NCBI GenBank assembly: GCA_002842195.1
Contig: PHCL01000009.1
Span: 1 to 11,935, forward strand
Length of the DNA stretch: 11,935 nt
Source of the DNA: Betaproteobacteria bacterium HGW-Betaproteobacteria-20
GTDB taxonomy: Bacteria; Pseudomonadota; Gammaproteobacteria; Burkholderiales; Methylophilaceae
Direction: 5' to 3'
Positions 1 to 11,935 of the stretch are shown here, one piece after another (positions within the stretch are counted from its first letter, which is position 1; the number at the start of each line of letters is the position of its first letter). Below the pieces are notes generated by a model. It saw only the letters and a list, made by a program, of their open reading frames with translations. It had not been told where the DNA came from and made no database searches. Position numbers and translations under genes: made by a program.

Positions 1-132
1 TGCGGCAGGCGATTGTTCCAGTTTATACGCATCCCCTAATGCCTGAATAAAATCAGTTGGGGGATAGTACGAAATGTACTGCAAAGCATCGGCAATACTT
101 TGAATGAAGTCGGCTTGTTTAATTACTGTCAT
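1..132 (-). CDS. fumA: Class I fumarate hydratase, N-terminal fragment (cut by window edge)
   Basis: Only the first 44 codons lie in the window. The translation begins MTVIKQADFIQSIADALQYI and continues with SYYPP, the segment FIQALGDAYKLEQSPAA and then the edge. This closely matches the start I know for the class I, iron-sulfur, two-domain fumarases of betaproteobacteria, which hydrate fumarate to malate. The catalytic cysteines and the C-terminal domain lie outside the window and cannot be checked. The start codon overlaps the stop of the upstream acyl-CoA synthetase gene as ATGA. No clear ribosome binding site precedes it, so translation probably depends on the upstream gene. Some class I fumarases also interconvert mesaconate and citramalate, which matters given the neighbouring CitE and mesaconyl-CoA hydratase-like genes. 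The family assignment is recognition of the N-terminus alone. Confidence 0.8.
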   Translation of the reverse strand, partial: MTVIKQADFIQSIADALQYISYYPPTDFIQALGDAYKLEQSPAA

Positions 133-1790
133 CTTGATGACTTCGCGATCGCTATTTTAGGGCTAATATCTTTACGCAAAATTTTACCATTTTTGGTGCG
201 CGGCAAATCATTTACCAGATAGACGGTTTTAGGCGTTTTGTAAGCGGCTAAATGTTGTTTACCGTAAGCCAACAAATCATCCGGGCTGGCACTTGTGTCC
301 GGTTTTAGAATTACATAAATCACCACCAGCAACTTGTCTTTTTCAATTTCCTCGCCTACCGCCGCACAATCGGCGACATCTGGATGATTTTTATATACAC
401 GTTCTATCTCGTAAGGCGATACGCGGTAGCCAAAACTTTTGATAATGTCATCTTTACGGCCTAAAAACCAAATGTAGCCGTCAGCATCGTATTTAGCATA
501 ATCACCAGTAAAGAAATAGTTGTCATGTTTGTATTTTGCGGTTTCTTCGGCCAAATTCCAATAGCTTAAAAATAAGCCAGGGTCATTGTCCGGCACGCTA
601 ATCATGCCCTCTTCACCATTTTTCACTTCTTCTAAACTATCAGGATTGAGTAGTTTGATGTGGTGTCCAGGTTGTGGAAATCCTGCAGAACCCGGGCGAA
701 TTGGCCTGAATTTACTTTGACTTAAGTAATACGAAAACTCACTCATACCCACCGCTTCGTATATATCAAACTTAAAACGCGCTTTCCATTGGCTTAATAC
801 CTCATCGGACAAATGCTCGCCGGCACTCATATAGTGGCGTAGGCTCGGTATTTCTGCTTGAGTCGCTTCTGTTTTTTGCAGAATTTGACGGTAAATAGTT
901 GGCACGCCAATAAAAATGGTTGCCTGGTGTTTCTGAATAAGATTTAACCAGGTTTGCGCATCGTTTTTACCTTCATGCACGATGACAGTTTTCCCTAAAT
1001 ATAGCGGATCCATCAGGCCTGAACCTAATACGTAAGTCCAATTAAACTTGCCTGAGTGCATGATGCGGTCACTAACACTCGCATTTTTTGTCTCCTCGGC
1101 GTAATTAAACCAATATTGCGCTGCAGGCTGACGACCAAGCAAGGCACGGTGGGCATGCAGTACGCCTTTAGGGAATCCGGTGGTTCCTGAAGTATAGACC
1201 AAATAGGCAGGATCATCGGCTCTACTGTTATACGGGCTGTCACACTTATGAATGACGCTTAAACAATTTTCTATACTCAGCACATTTAAGCAACCATGCG
1301 GCTGTGTATGCGTAGTCTGCGATAGCAGTATGTGCGATAAATTGGGCAAGTCACGCAGACTTTCTACCAGTTGCTCTTCCATAGTTACCCAAGCTTTTGC
1401 ATCGGTAACCAGTGCCGCTGCTCCCGAATCTTTGGCCAAATAAATGACTTCTTCTGCAGTTAATAAAGTTGAAGTTGGGACCGCAATCGCGCCCATTTTC
1501 ATGGCACCCAGAAACGCGATTGGATAATCTATACTGTTCGGCAAACGAATTAATACGCGCTCACCAACTTTTACTTTTAAGTTACGCAGCAGTTGTGCAA
1601 ATTGATCGGTTTTACGCGCAAGCTCGGCAAATGTAATCTGTGAAGTACCCAGTACATCATCTTCGACTATCATGGCAATGTTGTCTGACTGCACTGTGCC
1701 CAGGTGTCTATCGCTGCATGCCACACCTATATTGAAGTAGCTGGGGATATTCCAAATCCATTCTGGAAATTCTTTAAATTTTCGTGTCAT
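129..1790 (-). CDS. AMP-forming acyl-CoA synthetase (ANL superfamily), substrate unknown
   Basis: A 553-residue enzyme expected to activate a carboxylic acid with ATP and CoA through an acyl-adenylate. The adenylation core is complete. The phosphate-binding loop YTSGTTGFPKG is near residues 199-209 and YEAVGMSE near 344-351. TGD ends at Asp430, the hinge GRKDD is near 444-448, and the C-terminal NGKILRK supplies the catalytic lysine at about 536. There is no signal peptide or membrane segment, so it is cytosolic. The overall look is closest to medium-chain/benzoate-type ligases rather than acetyl-CoA synthetase, which is longer, but the substrate cannot be read from sequence. It lies 119 bp downstream of a CitE-like lyase gene and overlaps the fumarase gene by 4 bp. 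A short organic acid such as mesaconate, citramalate or propionate is therefore a reasonable inference. The ATG at 1790 is preceded only by a weak AAAAG. Confidence 0.9.
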   Translation of the reverse strand: MTRKFKEFPEWIWNIPSYFNIGVACSDRHLGTVQSDNIAMIVEDDVLGTSQITFAELARKTDQFAQLLRNLKVKVGERVLIRLPNSIDYPIAFLGAMKMGAIAVPTSTLLTAEEVIYLAKDSGAAALVTDAKAWVTMEEQLVESLRDLPNLSHILLSQTTHTQPHGCLNVLSIENCLSVIHKCDSPYNSRADDPAYLVYTSGTTGFPKGVLHAHRALLGRQPAAQYWFNYAEETKNASVSDRIMHSGKFNWTYVLGSGLMDPLYLGKTVIVHEGKNDAQTWLNLIQKHQATIFIGVPTIYRQILQKTEATQAEIPSLRHYMSAGEHLSDEVLSQWKARFKFDIYEAVGMSEFSYYLSQSKFRPIRPGSAGFPQPGHHIKLLNPDSLEEVKNGEEGMISVPDNDPGLFLSYWNLAEETAKYKHDNYFFTGDYAKYDADGYIWFLGRKDDIIKSFGYRVSPYEIERVYKNHPDVADCAAVGEEIEKDKLLVVIYVILKPDTSASPDDLLAYGKQHLAAYKTPKTVYLVNDLPRTKNGKILRKDISPKIAIAKSSR

Positions 1791-1829
1791 TTAACTTTTA
1801 TCATTTCATTATTTAACAATGGTCCGAAT

Positions 1830-1897
1830 CTGTCACTGCGGACTTGGCCCGCAATCCAACTAACCTCATAAGATTCTGACTTTCGTCAGCATGACAG
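1830..1897. repeat. Cruciform REP/MITE-like palindromic element
   Basis: The outer arms CTGTCACTGC (1830-1839) and GCATGACAG (1889-1897) are complementary over nine pairs with one bulged C. Two inner hairpins sit between them. The first has stem TGCGG/CCGCA (1837-1841 with 1849-1853). The second has stem CTGAC/GTCAG (1876-1880 with 1885-1889) around a TTTC loop. The stems share a few bases at their edges, so not all can pair fully at once. The layout resembles the short dispersed palindromic elements common in proteobacterial intergenic regions. It lies in the 119-bp gap between the CitE-like gene and the acyl-CoA synthetase gene, inside the presumed operon. In RNA it could act as a processing or stability site. 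No copy elsewhere in the window was seen, so calling it a dispersed repeat is inference. Confidence 0.45.
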
Positions 1898-1909
1898 TAC
1901 TATAGAGTC

Positions 1910-3070
1910 TCACAGCAATACCCCGTATGGCCAGTTTTGACGTATCACTTGCGCAGGCAATAATTCCAGCACTTGCAGCGCAAAATCTTTGTCTTCTGGC
2001 GTAATTGCACGTAGCGCATACGCACGTAGCAGAGTTTGCAAAGCTTTTCCAAACATCGGCGGATCCAGCATTTCGCCTTCAAACTTAATGGCACCGCCAT
2101 GCAAGGCGTCTGCCTCAATCGCGGCTTTTAAAATTCGCACCTTTTGGCTCACTTCTGTGGGCGACGGCGTGTAAGCCGTTTTGCATAAATGAATATGCCC
2201 TGGGTGAATAACCTGCTTACCGGTAAGCCCCATTGCGGCTTCTTGACAGGCATGCTTGTACACAATACGGGATTCGTTATCACCATGTAAATCCAGCCAG
2301 CGGCGTACATCATGCGGCTCTAAATAACTATCCGGCATAATATTGGCACCAATTAATGTTTCAACACCGCCAATCACGCCTTTGCCTGCAATACGCGCCT
2401 CAAACATCAACTGATTCATATAAAACTGCAGCTCATCCATCCAGTTTTCTGGCGTGATGTGGATTCCCATTGCTTTAGAAAAGTCATGTATTCCGAATAC
2501 TACATGCTTAACTGTGCTGTATTGCATGAGTTCTGGCGCAATTTTGAGTGATTTTGGGTGCTCAATAATTGGCTGAATAGTGATATTGGGGTTAAATTCC
2601 AGCAAAAAACTGGATAAATCACGCACTTCAGCTGCGCCGTAAGCCTCACCCGCTTTTGCCAGCATAATCACATCGATATAGTCGGCCATATCACTCACTA
2701 ACTGCATGTCTAGCTCGTATTCATCAGTACGAAATGAATTAGCGCGGATAGCAATCGTCACGTTAGGGTTCACTTTGCGTAACGCTGGCAGCTCTAACCT
2801 TAGTAAATCCCTGCTCATGGTTTTCTGACGGCAACCGTCTTCAAGGTCAAAAATCAGTGTATGCGCATTCGTGTTATACGCATGCTTTTTCATACGTGCA
2901 GAGGCTTGGCTTAAATCTTCATAAATACCCAGCGCAGGTGCGTATTTTACCGGTGGGTAATACAGCTGAATGCCTGGCCAGTTATCACCAAGCATGGCAC
3001 TGTTGGTATAGCACTTGATTTTTCCATTATTCATATTGATATTTTTTTCATTTTTGAGTGTGTTGTGCAT
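1910..3070 (-). CDS. CitE-like HpcH/HpaI-family CoA-ester lyase (386 residues)
   Basis: A member of the CitE/malyl-CoA lyase TIM-barrel family, which cleaves or forms 3-hydroxyacyl-CoA esters such as malyl-CoA, beta-methylmalyl-CoA or citramalyl-CoA. All family landmarks are present: DLEDG at 75-79, a CoA/substrate arginine in AIRANS at 109, metal ligands Glu170 (IIEHP) and Asp196 (GIHDFSK) 26 residues apart, GKQVIHPGHI, and the C-terminal lid motif EMLDPP with the likely catalytic Asp336. At 386 residues it is longer than classic CitE (about 290-300), with extra N-terminal and C-terminal segments. It starts 13 bp after sdhE, where many betaproteobacteria carry citrate synthase. The first ATG has a GTGAAAG upstream. 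A second in-frame ATG 12 codons later (3034) has no better site. Which CoA ester it uses is unknown. Confidence 0.88.
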   Translation of the reverse strand: MHNTLKNEKNINMNNGKIKCYTNSAMLGDNWPGIQLYYPPVKYAPALGIYEDLSQASARMKKHAYNTNAHTLIFDLEDGCRQKTMSRDLLRLELPALRKVNPNVTIAIRANSFRTDEYELDMQLVSDMADYIDVIMLAKAGEAYGAAEVRDLSSFLLEFNPNITIQPIIEHPKSLKIAPELMQYSTVKHVVFGIHDFSKAMGIHITPENWMDELQFYMNQLMFEARIAGKGVIGGVETLIGANIMPDSYLEPHDVRRWLDLHGDNESRIVYKHACQEAAMGLTGKQVIHPGHIHLCKTAYTPSPTEVSQKVRILKAAIEADALHGGAIKFEGEMLDPPMFGKALQTLLRAYALRAITPEDKDFALQVLELLPAQVIRQNWPYGVLL

Positions 3071-3083
3071 ATTAAACTTTCAC

Positions 3084-3374
3084 TTAACTTTGTCTTAATT
3101 TGGCTGCCACTTTTTCTATCGCTACTGCATCCAGTTGCTTAGTAGATGAAACTTTAATACTTGTTAGTGCTTTTCTTGCGGTCACTACATCTAAAAATTC
3201 GTTATCTGGTAAATCTAACAAATAGTCAAAAGCCAACAGTTCCTGAGCACTTAAATCTGTTAAGTGATTTTCAGAAAACCGTTGCAATATAATATCCAGC
3301 TCTAACAATCCGCGCCGACAACGCCAGCTTAAGCGTCGCACTTCTTCGTCTGTCATATTTTTAGTGTCGGACAT
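3084..3374 (-). CDS. sdhE: SdhE, FAD assembly factor for succinate dehydrogenase
   Basis: A 96-residue protein of the SdhE/YgfY (Sdh5) family, which promotes covalent attachment of FAD to the flavoprotein subunit SdhA. The hallmark RRGLLELD, containing the conserved RGxxE, lies near residues 20-27. The rest is helical and acidic, with LLDLPDNEFLD around residues 52-62. The C-terminal tail, about 30 residues ending in KLRQS, is longer and less conserved than in the E. coli protein. It follows sdhB after 52 bp and precedes the CitE-like gene by 13 bp, the usual place for this factor at the end of an sdhCDAB cluster. The ATG at 3374 has a modest GAGAT sequence about ten bases upstream. Cytosolic; no unusual features. 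Confidence 0.92.
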   Translation of the reverse strand: MSDTKNMTDEEVRRLSWRCRRGLLELDIILQRFSENHLTDLSAQELLAFDYLLDLPDNEFLDVVTARKALTSIKVSSTKQLDAVAIEKVAAKLRQS

Positions 3375-3426
3375 ATGGTTATCTCGTTACATTTTTTCTA
3401 TAGTCTAATGACTGCACACTAACAAC

Positions 3427-4167
3427 TCAAACCGCCTTAATCTCAATCCGCTTCTTCACATTATTTTTATGTTCTCGTGCCTGCTCAAATTTAAGGTCTT
3501 TAATTTTAGCGATAGCAGCATTGGGATTAAGCTTTTTCGGGCAAACCTCAACGCAGTTCATAATATTATGGCAACGATACAAACGATCCGGCTCTTCTAG
3601 ATTCTCTAAGCGCTCGTCTAGGGCCTGATCACGGCTATCCACCATAAAGCGATAAGCCTGCATTAAGCCTGCAGGGCCTACAAACGTTTCCGGATTCCAC
3701 CAAAAAGACGGGCAAGAGGTCGTGCACGCGCCGCATAAAATACATTCATACAAGCCATCCAGCTTGGCGCGATCTTCTGGTGACTGCAAACGTTCATTTT
3801 CTGGCACAGGGTCGTTATTCACCAAGTAAGGCTTAACGGAGTTGTAATGTTCAAAAAATTGCGTCATATCAACCACCAAATCGCGAATCACCGGTAAGCC
3901 CGGCATAGGGCGCAGCACAACTGGCTCTTGTAATTCAGATAACTTGGTAATACAAGCCAGGCCATTTTTACCGTTGATATTCATACTATCTGAGCCACAC
4001 ACACCTTCGCGGCACGATTTACGCAAGCTTAAGCTATCGTCTAAATCTTTAATGCGAATAAGCGCATCCAACAGCATTTGGTCACCATCCCCCAGTGCAA
4101 TGTCGTAATCCTGCATATACGGTTTTTTATCTACATCTGGGTTGTAACGATATATTGAGAATTTCAT
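3427..4167 (-). CDS. sdhB: Succinate dehydrogenase iron-sulfur subunit SdhB
   Basis: The electron-transfer subunit of complex II, carrying electrons from the SdhA flavin to the membrane quinone site. With this start the protein has 246 residues. The [2Fe-2S] motif CREGVCGSD plus NGLAC lies near residues 52-72, with the usual fourth ligand position being Asp. CILCGACTTSCP binds [4Fe-4S], and CHNIMNCVEVCPKKLNP supplies the [3Fe-4S] and remaining [4Fe-4S] ligands. All expected cysteines are present. An earlier in-frame ATG at 4188 would add seven residues (MKSRDKH). I prefer 4167 because AAGAGAT lies at a good distance upstream of it, nothing useful precedes 4188, and MKFSIYRYNP is the usual family start. 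The gene follows sdhA closely, in operon. Confidence 0.95.
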   Translation of the reverse strand: MKFSIYRYNPDVDKKPYMQDYDIALGDGDQMLLDALIRIKDLDDSLSLRKSCREGVCGSDSMNINGKNGLACITKLSELQEPVVLRPMPGLPVIRDLVVDMTQFFEHYNSVKPYLVNNDPVPENERLQSPEDRAKLDGLYECILCGACTTSCPSFWWNPETFVGPAGLMQAYRFMVDSRDQALDERLENLEEPDRLYRCHNIMNCVEVCPKKLNPNAAIAKIKDLKFEQAREHKNNVKKRIEIKAV

Positions 4168-4197
4168 GTGCTTATCTCTTGATTTCATATTTTGTGC

Positions 4198-5961
4198 TTA
4201 ATAAACACGTGCTTTTGGTTCAAAGCTCTCAACCGTCTGCGGTTTTAAGCGCACTGGTTTGTAGCTCAAACGGTTGCCTTCACGGTAATACAATGAATGT
4301 TTTAGCCAGTTTTTATCATCGCGCTCTGCAAAATCCTCTCGCGCATGCGCACCACGGCTTTCATGGCGGGCTTCGGCTGCATGCATGGTTGCCAAAGCCA
4401 CCTCAACCAAATTATCAAGCTCTAGCGCCTCTACCCTCGCGGTGTTAAAAACCTGACTTTTGTCTTTAATCATAGTATTTTTTGCGCGCTCCGCCACTTG
4501 GTTTATTTCATTCACACCCGCTTGCAATAACTCAGGGAAGCGGAACACGCCACAATGTCTTTGCATGGTTTCACGTAAAGTTGCGCCTACGTCTTTCACG
4601 GTCTCGCCCTGCGTTTGAGCGTCTAAACGACTCAAACGTGCTAATGTTTTATCAGCGGCATCCGCTGGCAAGGGTTTATGTGTATTGTCTTTTCTGACCT
4701 CCTCTACCATTTTGTCGCCAGCCGCACGGCCGAACACCACTAAATCCAACAATGAGTTTGAACCCAGCCGGTTAGCCCCATGCACAGAAACACAAGCACA
4801 TTCACCCACAGCATATAAGCCATTCACCACCGATTGCCCGCCATTTGCATCGGGCACAACCACTTGACCTTGTAAGTTAGTCGGAATACCACCCATCATG
4901 TAGTGCGCAGTTGGCACAATGGGGATTGGGTCATAGACAGGATCAACATTAGCGAAGGTTTTTGCAATTTCACGAATACCAGGTAACTTATCGTTAATCA
5001 GCGCTTCGCCTAAATGGTCCAATTTCAGATACACCGCATCTTTATTTTTACCCACACCGCGACCTTCTTTAATCTCGGTGGCGGTAGCGCGCGAAACCAC
5101 ATCGCGGCTGGCTAAATCCTTAGCATGTGGCGCATAACGTTCCATAAATCGCTCCCCTAGCGAATTCACCAAATAGCCGCCCTCGCCACGCACGCCTTCC
5201 GTAATCAGTACACCTGCATTCAGCACGCCAGTTGGGTGGAATTGCCAAAACTCCATGTCTTGTAACGGGATGTTGGCGCGTGCCGCCATGCCTAAGCCGT
5301 CACCTGTATTGATAAAAGCATTAGTGCTGGCTTTGAATATACGTCCTGCTCCGCCGGTAGCCAACATAGTCGCTTTAGCGCGGATGCAGCGCACTTCACC
5401 TGTTTCAATCTCTAACGCCATCACGCCAAGCACATCACCATCAGCATCTTTTAATAAATCCAGTGCCAGCCATTCTACAAAAAACTGGGTGTTCGATTGA
5501 ATATTGCGCTGGTATAAAGTGTGTAACATGGCGTGGCCTGTTCTATCCGCTACTGCACATGTCCGTGAAATGGCACTTTCACCGAAGTTTTGCGTCATAC
5601 CGCCAAACGGGCGCTGGAATATTTTGCCATTCTCCAACCGGTCAAACGGCATGCCAAAATGCTCAAGCTCGTAAATTGCGGCGGCAGCGTTTTTACACAT
5701 AAACTCAATCGCATCCTGGTCACCCAAATAATCTGAACCTTTGATGGTGTCGTACATATGCCATAACCATTTATCATCCGCCACATTACCCAGTGCCGCA
5801 GCAATACCGCCCTGCGCAGCAACAGTATGTGAGCGAGTTGGAAACACCTTAGATAAAACAGCCACTTTTAAGCCAGACTGCGCCAACTGTAATGACGCGC
5901 GTAAGCCCGCGCCACCACCACCTACTACTAAAGCATCAAATGTTAATGTTGATAACGCCAT
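4198..5961 (-). CDS. sdhA: Succinate dehydrogenase flavoprotein subunit SdhA
   Basis: The catalytic subunit of complex II, oxidising succinate to fumarate at the cytoplasmic membrane. Its 587 residues match the usual length (588 in E. coli). The dinucleotide-binding GGGGAG is at 14-19. The covalent FAD histidine is His45 in SHTVAAQGG. The capping-domain and active-site segments [22 protein letters not shown] (catalytic arginine), HYMMGG and the C-terminal [14 protein letters not shown] are all present. The terminal R-Y-K-P segment seen in family members is represented by [13 protein letters not shown] lies upstream of the ATG. It sits 22 bp after sdhD and shortly before sdhB. SdhE, encoded downstream, would flavinylate His45. 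Nothing suggests the fumarate reductase form, given the sdhCD anchors next to it. Confidence 0.97.
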
Positions 5962-5983
5962 CTTTAAACCTTAAATAGTTAAT

Positions 5984-6331
5984 CTAACGAACTAAAAATA
6001 ACCAACTCGCCCATGCGATATACGCCCACAAGAGGGTAGCTAATAGCTTGAGTAGCACCACGCGTATATCGTAGTCTGGCACATAATCTTTAAACACATC
6101 GCGCACACCCAACCAAGCGTGGACGGACAAACAAATCCAAAATAACCAGCTGGCAATACGAAACCAAATTGGTTGAAAAAAGCTAAGCCACTCTTCATAT
6201 ACTGCTGGCTGTAAAATGATGATGCGCACTAGCAACATGATGCTGTAAGCCGCCATTGCAAAGGCGGTTAATCGCTGCATGAGCCATGCACGCATGCCCG
6301 GGTAACGTTTGGTTAGCAGATCAATTACCAT
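5984..6331 (-). CDS. sdhD: Succinate dehydrogenase membrane anchor SdhD
   Basis: A 115-residue hydrophobic protein with three predicted membrane helices (about residues 15-38, 53-77 and 90-113). The segment SVHAWLGVRDVFKDYV carries the haem b ligand His71. Asp82 and Tyr83 of the quinone pocket are at the same numbers as in E. coli SdhD, and the spacing is the same. With SdhC it anchors SdhAB and reduces ubiquinone. The gene starts 3 bp after the sdhC stop, so its ribosome binding region lies inside the sdhC end and is weak, which suggests coupled translation. It ends 22 bp before sdhA. Confidence 0.93.
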   Translation of the reverse strand: MVIDLLTKRYPGMRAWLMQRLTAFAMAAYSIMLLVRIIILQPAVYEEWLSFFQPIWFRIASWLFWICLSVHAWLGVRDVFKDYVPDYDIRVVLLKLLATLLWAYIAWASWLFLVR

Positions 6332-6334
6332 GAT

Positions 6335-6748
6335 TTAAAACCACAATTTAAGCGCCACTATGAAGGTTGCAAGCGCACCTAACACCAAAGTCACTTTGCT
6401 GGTATAACGCGCTTTCATTAGCGTGGTCATCCAATGCACATCCATTGCCAGGTGTCTTATGCCTGCGAAAAAGTGATGAAAAAAAGCCCATGCCAACCCA
6501 AGAAGCATGAGCTTTGTAAAAGGTGAATGCAATATCGATACTACCATTTCAAAATGCTGCGCCGAACTTAGCGATAGTTGTAATAACAACAAAATAGCCG
6601 GCAAGATTAAAAATAAAATGCAGCCCGTAGCTCTATGCAAAATAGATACCAGCGCGTTAATCGGCAACCTGATTGTTGTCAGATTAAGATTTTTCGGTCT
6701 ATTTTTTTGTTTAGCTTCGCTTTTAATTTTTGGTTCATTATTTTGCAT
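6335..6748 (-). CDS. sdhC: Succinate dehydrogenase cytochrome b556 subunit SdhC
   Basis: A 137-residue membrane anchor of complex II with three predicted helices. The family signature RPKNLNLTTIRLPINALVSI is near residues 17-36. It is followed by LHRATG, where Ser35 and Arg39 correspond to the quinone-site residues Ser27 and Arg31 of E. coli. HHFFAGIRHLAMD contains the haem b ligand, His92 by alignment with E. coli His84. The N-terminus carries about 16 extra polar, lysine-rich residues before the conserved start, which is common in betaproteobacteria. It begins 11 bp after the malic enzyme stop, so that gene and sdhC are almost certainly on one transcript. AAAGAG at the end of the malic enzyme gene and GTAAGTAG near the start may serve in ribosome binding. 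Confidence 0.94.
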   Translation of the reverse strand: MQNNEPKIKSEAKQKNRPKNLNLTTIRLPINALVSILHRATGCILFLILPAILLLLQLSLSSAQHFEMVVSILHSPFTKLMLLGLAWAFFHHFFAGIRHLAMDVHWMTTLMKARYTSKVTLVLGALATFIVALKLWF

Positions 6749-6759
6749 GTTATATCTAC

Positions 6760-7971
6760 TTACTCTTTAGCCTGTTGCAATCTTGCCGCATCCGCTACCG
6801 CACCCGACACGCGCGCTAGCAGGCGCTTGTCAAACGGCTTTGGAATAATATATTCGCGGCCAAAACTTAAACTCGTTAAGTTATAGGCTTGCAGCACATC
6901 TGCCGGCACAGGCTCGCGTGCAAGTTCAGCTAATGCATGTGCTGCGGCAATTTGCATTGCATCGGTAATTTGTTTAGCTTTTGCATCCAAAGCACCACGA
7001 AACAAGTAAGGAAAGCACAGCGCATTATTCACTTGGTTTGGAAAATCTGAACGGCCAGTCGCCATTAAAATATCATCACGTACCGCATGCGCTAAATCAG
7101 GTAGTATTTCAGGGTCCGGATTTGCCAGCGCAAATACTACTGGTTTTGACGCCATCAGTTTAAGCAACTCCGGCGACAATGCATTTGCGGCGGAAACGCC
7201 AATAAATACATCGGCTTGCGGCATTACATCAGCCAAAGTTTTAGCATCACTCGGAGCAACAGCTAAGTGACGATTATTGTCATGTAAGTCAACGCGTGAC
7301 GTATCCAGCACACCTGATTTATCCACCATAGTGATGCTGGTAGCACCCATTAACTTGAGCAATCTTGCACAGGAACATCCCGCCGCACCAGCCCCGAGAA
7401 AAACTATTTTTGCGGTTGGTAAGGTTTTTCCTTGTAGCGCTAAGGCATTAGATAATGCCGCAGCCACAATAACTGCCGTACCATGCTGATCATCATGGAA
7501 CACGGGGATATCCAGGCGTTTTTTAAGCTCGTTTTCAATATAAAAACAATGTGGGGCAGCGATGTCTTCTAGATTAATACCGCCAAAGGTCGGCGCAATA
7601 TTCACCACAGTCTGAATAAATTCATCAGGCGTTTTGGCATTAATTTCAATATCAAACACATCTATGCCCGCAAAGTGCTTAAACAAAACTGCCTTGCCTT
7701 CCATCACCGGCTTACTGGCCAGTGCACCCATATTGCCCAAACCCAACACCGCTGAGCCATCTGTAATTACAGCAACTAAATTACCTTTATTGGTGTATTT
7801 ATAGGCCTTAGTTGGATCTGCATAGATCTCACGCACAGGCGCCGCCACACCTGGCGTGTAGGTCAGCGATAAATCATCTTGCGTAGCACAGGGCTTGGAT
7901 GATTCAACCGAAAGTTTTCCCGGCCTGGGAAATTCGTGATAATCAAGCGCGCGTTTATTTAGATCATCCAT
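6760..7971 (-). CDS. NAD(P)-dependent malic enzyme, short form
   Basis: Oxidatively decarboxylates malate to pyruvate and CO2. At 403 residues it has only the malic enzyme core. It lacks the C-terminal phosphotransacetylase-like domain that makes E. coli MaeB about 760 residues. Catalytic Tyr38 lies in LTYTPGVA and Lys93 in GKAVLFK. Metal ligands are Glu135/Asp136 (INLEDI) and Asp161 (DDQHGTA). The Rossmann loop GAGAAG is at 193-198. Coenzyme choice between NAD and NADP is not decided here. The gene leads the sdhCDAB cluster with an 11-bp gap to sdhC. It would drain malate made from succinate through SDH and the downstream fumarase into pyruvate. The ATG has AAAGG 11 bases upstream. A TGTTATAAA resembling an extended -10 lies just before that, but it overlaps the ribosome site, so no promoter is called. 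Confidence 0.93.
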   Translation of the reverse strand: MDDLNKRALDYHEFPRPGKLSVESSKPCATQDDLSLTYTPGVAAPVREIYADPTKAYKYTNKGNLVAVITDGSAVLGLGNMGALASKPVMEGKAVLFKHFAGIDVFDIEINAKTPDEFIQTVVNIAPTFGGINLEDIAAPHCFYIENELKKRLDIPVFHDDQHGTAVIVAAALSNALALQGKTLPTAKIVFLGAGAAGCSCARLLKLMGATSITMVDKSGVLDTSRVDLHDNNRHLAVAPSDAKTLADVMPQADVFIGVSAANALSPELLKLMASKPVVFALANPDPEILPDLAHAVRDDILMATGRSDFPNQVNNALCFPYLFRGALDAKAKQITDAMQIAAAHALAELAREPVPADVLQAYNLTSLSFGREYIIPKPFDKRLLARVSGAVADAARLQQAKE

Positions 7972-8055
7972 TTGTTTTTTTGCCTTTATAACATCACCGT
8001 AAAATTACAAGTGCTTTTCAAAATGCGTAATGGTAAGAAGAAAGGTAAGCACAAA

Positions 8056-8148
8056 CTGTACTAACAGTACGGCAAGCCAGTATTTGGCTTGTCCGTGGAA
8101 TACACCAACTGAAGTTGGTTATTCGCACGCCAAGCGCAACCTGACGCT
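8056..8148. other. Run of consecutive hairpins between gntR and malic enzyme genes
   Basis: The 199-bp gap 7972-8170 has no convincing gene but is rich in inverted repeats. First is CTGTACT/AGTACGG (8056-8062 with 8066-8072, loop AAC, one G-T pair). Second is CAAGCCA/TGGCTTG (8073-8079 with 8085-8091, five-base loop), extendable by CGG/CCG with one bulged T. Third is ACCAACT/AGTTGGT (8104-8110 with 8113-8119), also readable as a six-pair stem with a TGAA tetraloop. Fourth is a weak AGCG/CGCT (8133-8136 with 8145-8148). No T-run follows on either strand, so a simple intrinsic terminator is not supported. Candidates are a structured leader of the malic enzyme-sdh transcript, a processing site that separates it from gntR mRNA, or a palindromic repeat element. 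Function is unknown. Confidence 0.4.
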
Positions 8149-8170
8149 GCTAGTGTGTATTTTAAATGCA

Positions 8171-8908
8171 CTACTCAAGCTCGTTCATATAATGATGATT
8201 ATCCGTCACGCACAACCCCAAGCGCCATTCCATTGGTTTGTCGCCATAAGTAAAAGATACGCGCTCTATACTTAACAGGGGATTACCTTCTTTCAAACCT
8301 AGCGCTTTAGCTACCTCACCAGTTGCGGCAACCGCTTTTAAACGCTCCTCTGCACGTATCATACGTATACCAAAATCCGACTCATACAAGCTATACATAG
8401 AACCGTTTCTTTCTTCTACTCGCATACCGTTTAAGCCTTTAAATGAACTTGCAGGCACTACAATATGGTCATAAATGAGCGGCCTGCCCGAAAATGTCAG
8501 CAAGCGTTTTATTTCTATCGTGGTTGCACCGGCTTTTACATCTAACATCTGCCCCATACGCACATCCGCCTTACCTTTTGTGCATGAAATAAACTCATTC
8601 TTTAATAATTCCTTTTGCCCATCTACAGAAGTCAGCCGTAGAAAACGCAGCTTAATAACGTCTGCACTATGTGTGGCGACAAACGTACCTTTACCCTGAC
8701 GGCGAATCAAAATATTTTCAGTTGCCAAAGCATCAATCGCCTTGCGTACAGTACCTTGACTTACCTTATAACGGCCAGCCAATTCAATTTCACTTGGAAT
8801 CATATCGCCAGGTCGCCATTCGCCGCCGATTAAACTCTGCGTAAGCAACACTTTGATTTGATCATATAGTGGTTTGTAACTAGGTGAGTTGTATTGTTTG
8901 TCTATCAT
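8171..8908 (-). CDS. GntR-family (HutC-type) transcriptional regulator with UTRA domain
   Basis: A 245-residue DNA-binding regulator. Residues 10-78 form the GntR winged helix-turn-helix: PLYDQIKVLL, then MIPSEIELAGRYKVSQGTVR, then the wing RRQGKGTFV. The remainder, about 95-240, is a UTRA ligand-binding domain of the HutC subfamily, with features such as RLLTFSGRPLIYDHIVVP and a conserved IERVSFTYGDKPMEWR. The ligand is unknown. An organic acid or acyl-CoA from the neighbouring pathway is likely by context. The start at 8908 is preceded by AGGCGG at good spacing. The gene is divergent from the CitE-mch-CitE set. It lies upstream of, and on the same strand as, the malic enzyme-sdh genes, so it is well placed to control both. 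A GntR gene next to sdhC is a common betaproteobacterial arrangement. Confidence 0.92.
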   Translation of the reverse strand: MIDKQYNSPSYKPLYDQIKVLLTQSLIGGEWRPGDMIPSEIELAGRYKVSQGTVRKAIDALATENILIRRQGKGTFVATHSADVIKLRFLRLTSVDGQKELLKNEFISCTKGKADVRMGQMLDVKAGATTIEIKRLLTFSGRPLIYDHIVVPASSFKGLNGMRVEERNGSMYSLYESDFGIRMIRAEERLKAVAATGEVAKALGLKEGNPLLSIERVSFTYGDKPMEWRLGLCVTDNHHYMNELE

Positions 8909-8981
8909 AATAAATTTGCCGCCTGAAACGCTAAATTACATTAAGCATATTTATAACATGCCGATTCCAAATAGTCTAGTG

Positions 8982-9018
8982 TTTTATATCTTATATAAGA
9001 TGTAAAATATAAGATATA
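8982..9018. promoter_or_regulatory. Palindromic operator array, probable GntR binding sites
   Basis: A perfect 14-bp palindrome ATCTTATATAAGAT (8988-9001) extends to 8982-9007 as TTTTA/TAAAA arms with one mismatched pair. A further TATAAGAT at 9008-9015 repeats the half-site at 8994-9001 with a 14-bp period. Seen another way, TATATCTTATAT (8985-8996) and ATATAAGATATA (9007-9018) form an exact 12-bp inverted repeat with centres 22 bp apart, about two helical turns. Three half-sites in overlapping arrangement suggest two regulator dimers or alternative binding modes. The array ends two bases before a -35 box and lies between the divergent gntR and CitE genes. Assignment to the adjacent GntR protein is inference from position and symmetry. 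Confidence 0.75.
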
Positions 9019-9020
9019 GG

Positions 9021-9050
9021 TTGACAGTTTTAAATATCCCTCTATATAAT
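9021..9050 (+). promoter_or_regulatory. Sigma70 promoter of the CitE-mch-CitE operon
   Basis: The -35 box TTGACA (9021-9026) and -10 box TATAAT (9045-9050) both match consensus fully and are 18 bp apart. Transcription would start near 9057, giving a leader of about 56 bases before the ATG at 9113. The inverted-repeat array ends at 9018, directly upstream of the -35 box. A regulator bound there could contact or block RNA polymerase. So strong an intrinsic promoter suggests repression rather than activation as the default control. Confidence 0.85.
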
Positions 9051-9112
9051 CAAAAAAACCTCATTTACTATTTTTAAAAATCGGCACTCAAGCCCATACA
9101 TAAGGTATACGA

Positions 9113-10003
9113 ATGAATCAATATTTTCGCCCTCGCCGTTCTATGCTTTACGTGCCAGGTTGCAATACGCATTATTTAGAACGTGCGCGCACCTTGCCTG
9201 CGGATTCTGTCATTCTAGACTTAGGTGACCCTATCCTCGTGGAATGTAAAGAAGAATCACGTGACAATGTCGTGCGCTTTGTCAATGAAGGTGGTTATGG
9301 CCCGCGTGAAGTTGTCGTGCGTGTGAACGACCTTATTTCGCAATGGGGTCCTGATGATATTAAAGCTGTCGCAAAAATAAAAGTCGATGCAGTATTGTTC
9401 CCTAACATTGAATCACGTGAAGATGTGCTTACCGCACTCTCACTGCTTGATGCGGCGGGTGGAGCTCATTTACCTATCATGGTGATGATAGAAAGCCCTA
9501 TAGCTGTGCTTAATGCTAAAGAAATTGCCAGCGCATCAGATCGCATTGTGTGTATGGTCATCGCGACCTCCGACCTGATTTCCCAGTTGCATGCGCGCGT
9601 TACGCATGAGCGTCTGGCCATTTTAACCTCGCTGTCTTTAGTAGTGCTAGCTGCACGCGCTTATGGCCACGCCGTGGTAGATGGCATTACCAGCGACTTC
9701 AAAAATATGTATTCTTTTGAATATGCGTGCCGCCTCGGTCGCGATATGGGCTTTGATGGGAAATCGCTGGTACATCCAGCACAGTTACCCTACAGCAACG
9801 ATGCATATACACCGCATGCAACCGAAGTTGCGAATGCCCGTGAAATTATTTCCGCACTAAAAGCCGCCAACGAGGCAGGAAAAGGGACCGTTGTAGTGAA
9901 CGACAAATTAGTAGAGCGCCATCATGTAAGAGCAGCTGAACGGCTATTAAAACTAAGTGAAATGATTATAACGCTGGGAAAAAATGATGGCTCAAACAAA
10001 TAA
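9113..10003 (+). CDS. CitE-like CoA-ester lyase family protein with altered DLED motif
   Basis: A 296-residue HpcH/HpaI-CitE family protein of normal length. Recognisable parts are RRSMLYVPG at 8-16, Arg70 in VVVRVND, metal ligands Glu127 (MIESP) and Asp154 (ATSDL) 27 residues apart, GFDGKSLVHPAQL, and a C-terminal lid segment DKLVERHHVRAAERLL. Several normally conserved positions differ. The DLED motif is DLGDP (Gly38 instead of Glu), the usual PK after the barrel strand is PN at 97-98, and the usual LGT or FGT before the metal Asp is IAT. The lid carries Glu where malyl-CoA lyase has Asp, though Glu also occurs in related CitE-like proteins. It may be a lyase of changed specificity or a weakened paralogue. 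It is first in its operon, with AAGG seven bases before the ATG, and overlaps the next gene. Confidence 0.85.
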   Translation: MNQYFRPRRSMLYVPGCNTHYLERARTLPADSVILDLGDPILVECKEESRDNVVRFVNEGGYGPREVVVRVNDLISQWGPDDIKAVAKIKVDAVLFPNIESREDVLTALSLLDAAGGAHLPIMVMIESPIAVLNAKEIASASDRIVCMVIATSDLISQLHARVTHERLAILTSLSLVVLAARAYGHAVVDGITSDFKNMYSFEYACRLGRDMGFDGKSLVHPAQLPYSNDAYTPHATEVANAREIISALKAANEAGKGTVVVNDKLVERHHVRAAERLLKLSEMIITLGKNDGSNK

Positions 10004-11090
10004 AACCACAGAGAGTATCAATAAAATTACCGGTGGCAATTACTATGAGGATTTTCACCTCAACCAAGTGATTCAACACGCCACGCCACGCACAATCACG
10101 GCTGGCGATTGTGCGCTGTATATTGCACTTACAGGTTCACGTAACCCTTTGCATTGTAGCGAACCTTTTGCACAATCACTGGGTTATAAAACAACGCCTG
10201 TAGATGATTTACTGGTATTTCATATTGCGTTTGGCAAAACCGTTCCAGATATTTCGGTGAATGCCATTGCCAATTTAGGATATGCTGATGTTCGCTTTAT
10301 TCAGCCAGTATTTGCCGGCGACACACTATCAACCAGTAGCCGGGTAATTGGTTTAAAAGAAAATTCCAGCGGCAAGAGCGGTGTGGTCTGGGTGAAATCG
10401 ACTACCGTTAACCAAAATAATGAGCCCGTGTTGAGTTGGGTGCGATGGGTAATGGTGCATAAAACCAGGCCGCAGGAAAATAATCATGCGCTACCTGAAC
10501 CTGCAACGGTCATTCCAGAATTGCCAAGCTTTGTTACGCCAGAAAGTTTAAACATTCCTGCTTATTTTTCTGCCAAAAGTTTTGATGCTTCTGCTACAGG
10601 AGGGCGATATTTTTGGGAAGATTACCAAGCTGGCGAGCAGATCAGCCATACAGCTGGCTGCACCATTGATGCCGCCGAACACGCACTCGCCACGCGACTT
10701 TATCAAAACAATGCACGATTGCATTTTGATGACCATTTAATGAAAACTTCAAGCTTCGGCCAACGCCTGGTATACGGTGGCGTGCTGATTTCGCATTGCC
10801 GTGCGCTGAGTTTTGAAGGTTTAGAAAACGCCATTTCTATATTGGCAATTAACGCTGGAACGCACGTAAATCCAAGTTTTGCGGGCGATACCATTTACGC
10901 GTTAACAGAAGTGATAAACGCATGGACTTTACCTAACCGTAACGATATTGGCGCATTACGCCTGCGGATGGTTGGCATTAAAAATATGTCGTCCGTTGAC
11001 ATTGCTGACATTAAAACTGATAGCGGCTATCACCCTAACGTGGTGCTGGACCTTGACTATACTGTGGCAATTCCACGCAAAGGAAATTGA
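9984..11090 (+). CDS. mch: Mesaconyl-CoA hydratase-like double-hotdog MaoC protein
   Basis: A 368-residue protein with two MaoC hotdog domains (about 25-160 and 210-365). It strongly resembles mesaconyl-CoA hydratase (beta-methylmalyl-CoA dehydratase) of the ethylmalonyl-CoA and 3-hydroxypropionate pathways. Characteristic segments are HATPRTITAGDCALYIALTG, PVDDLLVFHIAFGKTVPDIS, NLGYADVRF, then WEDYQAGEQI, ATRLYQNNARLHF and YGGVLIS, with AGDTIYALTEV and VVLDLDYTV near the end. The N-terminal domain reads TGSRNPLH, lacking the Asp of the classic TGDxNPxH hydratase motif, as I recall also for true Mch proteins. Catalysis would rest on the second-domain motif near 237-251. The predicted reaction is reversible hydration of mesaconyl-CoA to beta-methylmalyl-CoA in the cytosol. 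The gene overlaps the upstream CitE-like gene by 20 bp. An adjacent ATG at 9987 is equally possible, with GGGA upstream. Confidence 0.83.
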   Translation: MMAQTNKTTESINKITGGNYYEDFHLNQVIQHATPRTITAGDCALYIALTGSRNPLHCSEPFAQSLGYKTTPVDDLLVFHIAFGKTVPDISVNAIANLGYADVRFIQPVFAGDTLSTSSRVIGLKENSSGKSGVVWVKSTTVNQNNEPVLSWVRWVMVHKTRPQENNHALPEPATVIPELPSFVTPESLNIPAYFSAKSFDASATGGRYFWEDYQAGEQISHTAGCTIDAAEHALATRLYQNNARLHFDDHLMKTSSFGQRLVYGGVLISHCRALSFEGLENAISILAINAGTHVNPSFAGDTIYALTEVINAWTLPNRNDIGALRLRMVGIKNMSSVDIADIKTDSGYHPNVVLDLDYTVAIPRKGN

Positions 11091-11093
11091 ACT

Positions 11094-11935
11094 ATGGCCA
11101 AAACTTTATACAAAACCCATCCAGATGATGCATTGTTCGGTGGCGAAAAGCCGTTTCCACTGATTCCTGCCTGTGAACATTTTGCAGGAAGTGAAAAACT
11201 GATATTAAAAGCACTTGCCCTGCAAGACAGCATTGGTCCGGTATTTGATATTACCTGTGATTGTGAAGATGGTGCAGCCTCCGGTCAAGAACGTGTCCAT
11301 GCCGAGATGATAGTGCGCGTGTTAAATTCAGATGCCAACGTCCACAAAATGGCGGGCGCACGCATTCACGACTATACGCATATTGCCTGGAAACAGGATA
11401 TAGATATATTAGTCGGCGGTGCAGGCAACTTGTTAAGTTACATTACCATTCCAAAATGCACCAGTTTGTCGCAAGCGAGTGAGATGATTAATTACATTCA
11501 AAAAACTGCGATTTTTCATGGTCTGGAAGAAAACGGCAAGCCTCGTGAAATTCCTGTACATATTTTGATTGAAACACACGGCGCATTAAAGCAAGTGCAT
11601 GAGATTGCCGCGCTACCTTGGCTGCAAGTGCTGGATTTCGGCTTAATGGATTTTGTCAGCGCGCATCACGGCGCAATTCCGGCTTCTGCTATGCGCAGCC
11701 CGGGGCAGTTTGAACATAAATTACTCGTCCGCGCTAAAACTGAAGTCGCTGCCGCAGCGCTAGCCAATGGCATTGTGCCGGCACATAACGTCACATTAGA
11801 TCTTAAAAATGTAGAGACCACATTTAACGATGCCGCGCGCGCACGGAACGAATTTGGTTTTTTACGTATGTGGAGCATTTACCCCACGCAAATTCAGGCA
11901 ATTGTTGATGCCATGAAACCCAACTACGACGAGGT
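11094..11935 (+). CDS. CitE-like HpcH/HpaI aldolase/CoA-ester lyase, 3' end outside window
   Basis: The frame is open from the ATG at 11094 to the window edge (280 codons), preceded by a good AAAGGA nine bases upstream and only 3 bp after the mch-like stop. The protein begins MAKTLYKTHPDDALFGGEKP and contains IPACEHFAGSEKLILKAL. The active-site landmarks are CDCEDGAA (55-62), Arg90 in GARIHD, and metal ligands Glu160 (LIETHG) and Asp186 (FGLMDFVSAHHG), 26 apart. The part past 240 reads EFGFLRMWSIYPTQIQAIV. This is a distinct CitE subfamily that I know from betaproteobacteria, often next to malate dehydrogenase and the sdh cluster, about 330 residues long. It is not a close copy of either other CitE-like protein here. 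All catalytic residues seen are intact, so a real CoA-ester lyase or synthase is likely. The substrate is unknown. Confidence 0.87.
   Translation, partial: MAKTLYKTHPDDALFGGEKPFPLIPACEHFAGSEKLILKALALQDSIGPVFDITCDCEDGAASGQERVHAEMIVRVLNSDANVHKMAGARIHDYTHIAWKQDIDILVGGAGNLLSYITIPKCTSLSQASEMINYIQKTAIFHGLEENGKPREIPVHILIETHGALKQVHEIAALPWLQVLDFGLMDFVSAHHGAIPASAMRSPGQFEHKLLVRAKTEVAAAALANGIVPAHNVTLDLKNVETTFNDAARARNEFGFLRMWSIYPTQIQAIVDAMKPNYDE

Follow-up and report, generated by a model that had tools for sequence, protein, structure and literature searches.

The locus studied here raises the question of what genes for three CitE-superfamily proteins, a mesaconyl-CoA hydratase homologue and an AMP-forming acyl-CoA synthetase do beside the genes for succinate dehydrogenase. 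The stretch analysed (the window, 11,935 nucleotides (nt) long) is one whole contig (C201) of a Methylotenera-like draft genome from the Methylophilaceae (1.86 Mb, 456 contigs, 82%-complete); a related-locus search gave Methylotenera and other Methylophilaceae as nearest named relatives. An earlier note, made from the window alone, had proposed a pathway built around the succinate dehydrogenase locus that consumes propionyl-CoA and glyoxylate and yields acetyl-CoA and pyruvate via five-carbon (C5) acids. We compared the window with 80 related loci (L numbers), 25 genomes of the same genus including its own (G000), and a class-wide draw of 369 genomes. L103 repeats L062, L111 repeats L068, and L104 and L109 belong to one genus, so that these are not independent. 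Five genes, here called CitE1, ACS, CitE2, MCH and CitE3, are a separate unit, which is present in other Gammaproteobacteria without neighbouring prp genes; some lineages joined this module to prpBCD and, Methylophaga excepted, to sdh. The module probably handles CoA esters of the mesaconyl or methylmalyl type in connection with the methylcitrate cycle. The five genes lie in the window as follows (the cut-off of the Pfam model HpcH_HpaI, PF03328, is 25 bits):

129..1790, minus strand: ACS, AMP-forming acyl-CoA synthetase (PF00501/PF13193).
1910..3070, minus strand: CitE1, divergent CitE-superfamily protein of 386 amino acids (PF03328, 37.5 bits).
9113..10003, plus strand: CitE2, CitE-superfamily protein with altered catalytic residues (HpcH_HpaI, 138 bits; residue alignment).
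9984..11090, plus strand: MCH, mesaconyl-CoA (2-methylfumaryl-CoA) hydratase homologue (PF19315, 75.5 bits).
11094..11935, plus strand: CitE3, CitE-superfamily protein, of which the contig end leaves 280 of about 332 amino acids (PF03328, 47.1 bits).

MCH passed the cut-off of the Pfam model MC_hydratase (26.5 bits) over residues 16-330, a full-length domain, and aligned over its full length with PDB entry 4e3e (413 bits, 196 of 349 residues identical, 56%). We take 4e3e to be the Chloroflexus mesaconyl-CoA hydratase (Mch), although the database lists it only as a MaoC domain protein dehydratase. Entry 8hgn, listed as beta-methylmalyl-CoA dehydratase, was matched with 358 bits. Short MaoC proteins from related genomes reach 22-35% identity. 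The characterised Mch proteins of Chloroflexus and Rhodobacter share 58% identity and work in opposite directions, according to passages in PMC5592240. The identity of MCH to 4e3e is comparable to that between these characterised members, which supports placing MCH in the bacterial mesaconyl-C1-CoA hydratase family. Since the characterised pair runs opposite ways, membership of this family tells no direction. As read, MCH and CitE2 share 20 nt; in most relatives the alignment begins only at residue 13-14 of MCH, so that the true start may lie later. For ACS, no PrpE model was among the best 25 of 107 NCBIfam matches, these 25 being all below their cut-offs, and its PDB matches were of the anthranilate- or benzoate-CoA ligase type.

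At L107:5805-12097 (L108 is similar) an MCH homologue has as its neighbour a gene resembling that of (2S)-methylsuccinyl-CoA dehydrogenase (8ciw, 400 bits). This neighbour, the partner in ethylmalonyl-CoA-type metabolism, counts in favour of the reading of the module given below. The same stretch encodes a DUF6986/HpcH protein of 442 amino acids, possibly a beta-methylmalyl-CoA lyase of a type not recognised so far.

A strong MCH was found in seven other genomes of the class-wide draw. CitE1, ACS, CitE2 and MCH stand in one run in G101, G124, G248 and G287, with CitE3 adjoining on the other strand, and the stretches read around the module showed neither prp nor sdh genes. All five genes run in one direction in Sulfuricella sp. 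T08 (L068, the same as G038); here too neither prp nor sdh was near the module in the stretch read. Because the five genes stand without prp and sdh in these bacteria, they make up an independent unit. G200, a Methylophaga, has prpBCD, and G197 and G308 have MCH without the other module genes. With sdh missing beside the module in the stretches read of L068, G101, G124, G248 and G287, the position around the succinate dehydrogenase locus is partly accidental.

A second Sulfuricella locus (L073) has the same five-gene run without prp, with SdhC, malic enzyme, a GntR gene and a second CitE2 a few kb upstream; a palindrome of the SdhR type described below stands beside this GntR gene. The two CitE2 copies (2796-3650 and 8979-9833) lie one beside GntR-malic enzyme-SdhC and the other inside the five-gene module. 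The arrangement shows a possible origin of the larger cluster, by joining. In L079 and G035, MCH and CitE3 occur with prpBCD beside sdh, and ACS and CitE1 are absent from the stretches read. In Caballeronia (L081, L083) the MCH homologue (57%) is far from any orthologous CitE and may serve another pathway.

Among the related loci, CitE2, MCH and CitE3 are contiguous in 74 of 80, far more than expected by chance. In 56 of the 63 loci where this could be tested, ACS and CitE1 lie no further than 9.6 kb upstream of MCH. One of the seven exceptions, Methylobacillus L067, has the complete set with ACS and CitE1 further upstream, an acetate-CoA ligase gene and others being inserted between GntR and CitE2; behind it, L112:1428-13860 (Methylobacillus) carries the complete arm GntR-malic enzyme-SdhC-D-A-B-E-CitE1-ACS-fumarase in the order of the window. 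In L069 neither ACS nor CitE1 was seen in the stretch covered. Downstream of CitE3, prpB-prpC-prpD follow in 59 of 64 testable loci (exceptions L068, L073, L081, L082 and L083), and one representative each of PrpB, PrpC and PrpD scored above its NCBIfam cut-off. This identifies the locus as the methylcitric acid cycle cluster of the Methylophilaceae, which has already been published.

Passages of PMC4109929 give this cluster, from the same lineage and with the same genes, in the order prpCBD, cyl1, maoC, cyl2, gntR, mdh, sdhABCD, cyl3, prpE, fum, can. Matched by order and not by sequence comparison, cyl1-3 are the CitE genes, maoC is MCH, mdh malic enzyme, prpE ACS, and fum the fumarase. These passages describe a methylcitric acid cycle of unknown role and give no reaction for the CitE and MaoC proteins; the words mesacon, malyl, propion and citrate lyase occur nowhere in the main text of PMC4109929. 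A carbon-fixation survey that contains both Methylophilaceae and mesaconate makes no link between them in the part available. New in comparison with the published cluster are the resolved five-gene module, a decaying CitE paralogue, and a testable C5 link. According to extracts of PMC3728764, the Methylotenera cluster is highly expressed in situ, under field-like conditions even above the main carbon-assimilation pathway, and the metabolite processed is recorded as unknown. The available sections of PMC6794327 describe the cluster as oxidising propionate to pyruvate, and the Methylophilaceae as being without glyoxylate shunt, serine cycle and ethylmalonyl-CoA pathway. Extracts of PMC5120137 suggest a route for three-carbon compounds and report that prp genes of OM43 go up with dissolved organic matter; in OM43 strain NB0046, between nutrient-poor methanol and dissolved organic matter, an HpcH/HpaI gene rose from 101 to 1,055 and the adjoining CoA-ligase gene from 104 to 1,045. 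Judged by name and order, these two would be CitE1 and ACS.

The other features of the window are:

1..132, minus strand: class I fumarate hydratase, cut by the contig edge after its first 44 codons, 36/44 identical to the L004 protein.
3084..3374, minus strand: SdhE flavinator (PF03937).
3427..4188, minus strand: SdhB (NF004616, 358.3 bits, cut-off 228).
4198..5961, minus strand: SdhA (TIGR01816, 954.3 bits, cut-off 727).
5984..6331, minus strand: SdhD (PF01127, 40.6 bits).
6335..6748, minus strand: SdhC (PF01127, 100.9 bits).
6760..7971, minus strand: malic enzyme of 403 amino acids, corresponding in length and domains to just the catalytic part of MaeB (PF00390, PF03949).
8171..8908, minus strand: GntR/UTRA regulator, SdhR-like (PF00392, PF07702; its operator matches the published SdhR motif).
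8988..9001, no strand: SdhR-type palindrome ATCTTATATAAGAT between the divergent arms.

Transcription on the minus strand runs in the order GntR/UTRA, malic enzyme, SdhC, SdhD, SdhA, SdhB, SdhE, CitE1, ACS and fumarase start, and CitE2, MCH and CitE3 diverge from this arm on the plus strand. Profile matches bear out the gene content named in the earlier note, that is, three CitE-family proteins, an Mch homologue, an AMP-forming synthetase, SdhEBADC and malic enzyme. Of the class I fumarase, also present, only the beginning lies in the window; the L004 protein passes PF05681 with 243.8 bits, and the fumarase and ACS reading frames overlap by 4 nt, at the start of the former and the stop of the latter. 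The malic enzyme matched NF009501 at profile positions 8-401 of 764 (532.8 bits, below the cut-off of 1178); a full MaeB presumably carries a phosphotransacetylase-like half. By its domain, the "mdh" of the published cluster is a malic enzyme, and the form in L078 has 753 amino acids. Neither an Rfam riboswitch match nor a tRNA was found in the window.

The core TCTTATATAAGA of the palindrome is present in 65 of 66 intergenic regions between GntR and CitE2, the window included, and it is the core of the SdhR motif TCTTATGTCTTATATAAGACATAAGA, as given in the part of PMC4494728 available. With its GntR/UTRA domains and this operator, the regulator of the window resembles SdhR. The 14-base palindrome (up to three mismatches) is absent from the stretches L068, L104, L105, L106 and L109. 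In the cluster the genes form a single conserved unit, arranged around an operator that is itself conserved.

An acetate-CoA ligase-type gene (about 650 amino acids) lies inside or beside the cluster in six of 80 loci (L067, L069, L075; L020, L024, L025), either between GntR and CitE2 or directly after prpD. The one of L067 scored 962 bits with TIGR02188 (cut-off 725). In L067, L069 and L075 it has an SdhR-type palindrome on both sides.

All three CitE proteins counted in the earlier note are there, and they are the sole three HpcH_HpaI matches in the 82%-complete genome, but they are not equal. Residues are numbered as in the Mcl of Rhodobacter sphaeroides, with the catalytic set D42, E44, D45, R76, E141, D168 and D299, and Ala at 167; the alignments held 58 (CitE1), 79 (CitE2) and 73 (CitE3) rows, which are related and not independent. 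CitE1 keeps the catalytic set in 58/58 rows (one X aside) with His at 167 throughout, and CitE3 keeps it with Met at 167 in 73/73. In CitE2, E44 is replaced by Gly (72/79), D299 by Glu (77/79) and A167 by Ser (75/79), and residues held to be absolutely conserved across the superfamily are thereby missing. None of the three has the full malyl-CoA/beta-methylmalyl-CoA lyase set with Ala167. Residue 167 was dropped as a test of propionyl-CoA use, since CLYBL, which according to the structure title was crystallised with propionyl-CoA, carries Glu at this place. The best 120 of 1179 matches in the CitE1 protein search were all close homologues (at least 83% identity), and its predicted model (mean pLDDT 57.8, 11 rows) was not used for a fold search. 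CitE3 matched 3qqw with 410 bits.

The Asp-to-Glu lid change at D299 has been reported only for the malyl-CoA thioesterase (Mcl2) clade (PMC3832036). Only CitE2 among the three has this Glu, with Gln instead in L104, L105 and L109. The CitE2 orthologues L104:8770-9609, L105:8551-9405, L106:10570-11391 and L109:6948-7811 carry D168N, E44H, D299Q and R76G in various combinations. We rejected CitE2 as a plain thioesterase, because the lid Glu fits but the loss of D168 in L104, L105 and L109 does not; given this loss, a non-catalytic role is equally likely. The dN/dS between L104 and L109 is 0.044. CitE2 loses catalytic residues progressively, yet stays under purifying selection, like a pseudo-enzyme kept beside MCH. 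Its predicted model (pLDDT 85.5) gave CLYBL and malyl-CoA lyases as top structural matches, with (S)-citramalyl-CoA lyase also close.

Among the same-genus genomes, MCH was found in 22 of 25, and prpB and CitE1 in 20 each. G008, G022 and G023 lack all three alike, G023 being 99% complete, and the remaining gaps are all in drafts (prpB in G000 and G014, CitE1 in G006 and G014). Isocitrate lyase and malate synthase were above cut-off in none of the 25, the weak isocitrate lyase matches being PrpB. Type III CoA-transferase (PF02515), into which Mct presumably falls, was likewise above cut-off in 0/25; class I transferases were not searched.

Which way might such a module run? We tentatively favour the direction from mesaconyl-CoA via beta-methylmalyl-CoA to propionyl-CoA and glyoxylate with the roles given here, at somewhat less than even chance; it runs opposite to the direction of the earlier note. 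ACS would activate a C5 dicarboxylate, namely mesaconate, formed from (S)-citramalate by the coupled class I fumarase; mesaconase activity of class I fumarases, which the earlier note mentioned, is known (PMC4682846). MCH would hydrate mesaconyl-C1-CoA to beta-methylmalyl-CoA, and one of the CitE proteins, as lyase, would cleave this to propionyl-CoA and glyoxylate. PrpC, PrpD and PrpB would convert propionyl-CoA and oxaloacetate to pyruvate and succinate, and succinate dehydrogenase, fumarase and malic enzyme would convert the succinate further to malate and pyruvate. Another CitE could join glyoxylate to acetyl-CoA, giving malyl-CoA and then malate, and CitE2 might be a thioesterase or a non-catalytic partner. 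Since prpBCD, the classical propionyl-CoA sink, is in the same cluster, a propionyl-CoA-forming route fits better than another route for consuming it. Substrates, direction and CitE roles we infer from gene content, synteny, family membership, residues and operator, and sequence cannot prove a direction or a substrate.

Several points weigh against this assignment. In CitE1 and CitE3 the Ala of known malyl-CoA lyases is replaced by His and Met, though CLYBL, too, departs from Ala at this place, and CitE2, with room at 167, lacks E44 and D299 and in L104, L105 and L109 also the Mg ligand D168, so that no CitE at the locus looks like a clean beta-methylmalyl-CoA lyase. A search of the window's own assembly, whose contig stops before the expected place, did not yield prpB, and outside the cluster-bearing lineages prpBCD is absent beside the module. 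No source of mesaconate or citramalate came to light. Of ten module genomes tested, two (G101 and G124) have malate synthase, which means that the module does not simply replace this enzyme. The idea of a substitute for malate synthase and isocitrate lyase was dropped on this ground and because only 92 of the 369 class genomes carry isocitrate lyase.

The locus could also be an ordinary propionate cluster, in which ACS activates propionate or another short acid and the CitE and MaoC proteins act on itaconyl- or citramalyl-CoA or on side products, without beta-methylmalyl-CoA. This agrees with the published descriptions as a methylcitric acid cycle with "prpE" and as a path from propionate to pyruvate (passages in PMC4109929 and PMC6794327), and the NCBIfam models RipB and RipC are among the matches of MCH and CitE2 (119.8 and 121.2 bits), as are CLYBL and (S)-citramalyl-CoA lyase among the close structural matches of the CitE2 model. 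The Rip scores, however, are far below the cut-offs of 340 and 375 bits, MCH is much closer to full-length 4e3e than short MaoC proteins are, the genus lacks type III CoA-transferases above cut-off, and the five genes travel together without prp; we regard this explanation as unlikely. The direction of the earlier note, from propionyl-CoA and glyoxylate via beta-methylmalyl-CoA, mesaconyl-CoA, mesaconate, citramalate and citramalyl-CoA to acetyl-CoA and pyruvate, would give all five module genes a role, with CitE2 perhaps as thioesterase, fumarase I, ACS acting on citramalate and CitE1 as lyase. It would amount to the half of the 3-hydroxypropionate bicycle that takes up glyoxylate, with free acids in the place of Mct and Meh, and the free-acid intermediates that the note postulated are at least needed for that line, because type III CoA-transferases are absent from the genus; this absence would explain a pair of thioesterase and ligase. 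The thioesterase-clade Glu of CitE2 and the overlap of the ACS stop with the fumarase start fit as well. RuBisCO, a glyoxylate source, was found in six of six non-methylotroph module genomes tested (4/4 of the class draw without the own genome and Methylophaga G200, and two Sulfuricella), but 173 of 369 class genomes carry it anyway, and we rejected the association as too weak. No glyoxylate source was shown in methylotrophs, CitE2 is degenerate in several modules, and the cluster continues into prpBCD, which already disposes of propionyl-CoA, so that we consider this direction unlikely, slightly more so than the ordinary propionate cluster.

The third and boldest explanation, which we judge unlikely and the least probable of the three, has a citramalate cycle that is closed through the methylcitrate cycle. 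CitE1 would form (S)-citramalyl-CoA from acetyl-CoA and pyruvate, CitE2 as thioesterase would release citramalate, and fumarase I would give mesaconate; ACS and MCH would lead via mesaconyl-CoA to beta-methylmalyl-CoA, which is split into glyoxylate and propionyl-CoA, and PrpC, PrpD and PrpB would turn propionyl-CoA and oxaloacetate into pyruvate and succinate. The net reaction, acetyl-CoA and oxaloacetate to glyoxylate and succinate, is elsewhere achieved by citrate synthase, aconitase and isocitrate lyase. Every cluster gene would have a role, CitE2 being either a pseudo-enzyme subunit or a thioesterase that pulls the uphill first step, and pyruvate would be regenerated. Isocitrate lyase and malate synthase are missing above cut-off from the genus, an acetate-CoA ligase-type gene accompanies some clusters, and such a cycle was proposed for Rhodospirillum rubrum (passages in PMC8307300). 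Citramalyl-CoA synthesis is uphill, however, reaching 1:2.5 with a 200-fold excess of pyruvate for the Mcl of R. sphaeroides (PMC3832036). The malate synthase of two module genomes does not fit, the rarity of isocitrate lyase in the class lets its absence say little, and the available part of PMC8307300 reports doubts about the R. rubrum cycle.

Compared with known systems, MCH resembles the Mch of Chloroflexus and Rhodobacter and differs in its neighbours, here a synthetase and three CitE paralogues, with no Mct-family protein in the genus. The glyoxylate-assimilating half of the 3-hydroxypropionate bicycle likewise uses Mch and CitE-superfamily proteins; the present system differs in the missing Mct family, in having no CitE with the full malyl-CoA lyase set and in the linked prpBCD. 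From the lower half of the haloarchaeal methylaspartate cycle it differs in that an AMP-forming synthetase would activate the acid, propionyl-CoA would go through the methylcitrate cycle, and the Mch is of the bacterial type. The citramalate cycle of R. rubrum has the same intermediates, with candidates for all C5 steps here; according to the passages of PMC8307300, the cycle there is not tied to a single gene cluster and propionyl-CoA returns via succinyl-CoA, whereas here it would return via prpBCD. Itaconate degradation (RipABC or Ict-Ich-Ccl) shares a MaoC hydratase, a CitE lyase and acid activation, but differs by the low RipB and RipC scores and the missing type III transferase.

An Mch homologue in a module that can stand without prp makes reactions of mesaconate, citramalate, glyoxylate and propionyl-CoA testable. 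If the favoured direction is right, "obligate" methylotrophs would have a multicarbon route. If the citramalate cycle were true, acetyl-CoA would be assimilated without isocitrate lyase by a gene-level form of a pathway known from biochemistry only (PMC8307300, in the part available), and it would be explained why the methylcitrate cycle is kept in methylotrophs thought obligate. CitE2 clearly illustrates how a CitE paralogue can lose its metal site and still be maintained by selection.

Two related loci come from metagenome bins whose titles seem ill-fitting: L074 (titled Bordetella parapertussis) has a cluster of betaproteobacterial type, and L078 (titled Flavobacteriaceae) has one closely similar to that of the window, with 81% identity in CitE2. 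A contig of 2,376,131 bases (P0001) is on record with a protein identical to CitE1, so that a nearly complete genome of the species seems to exist.

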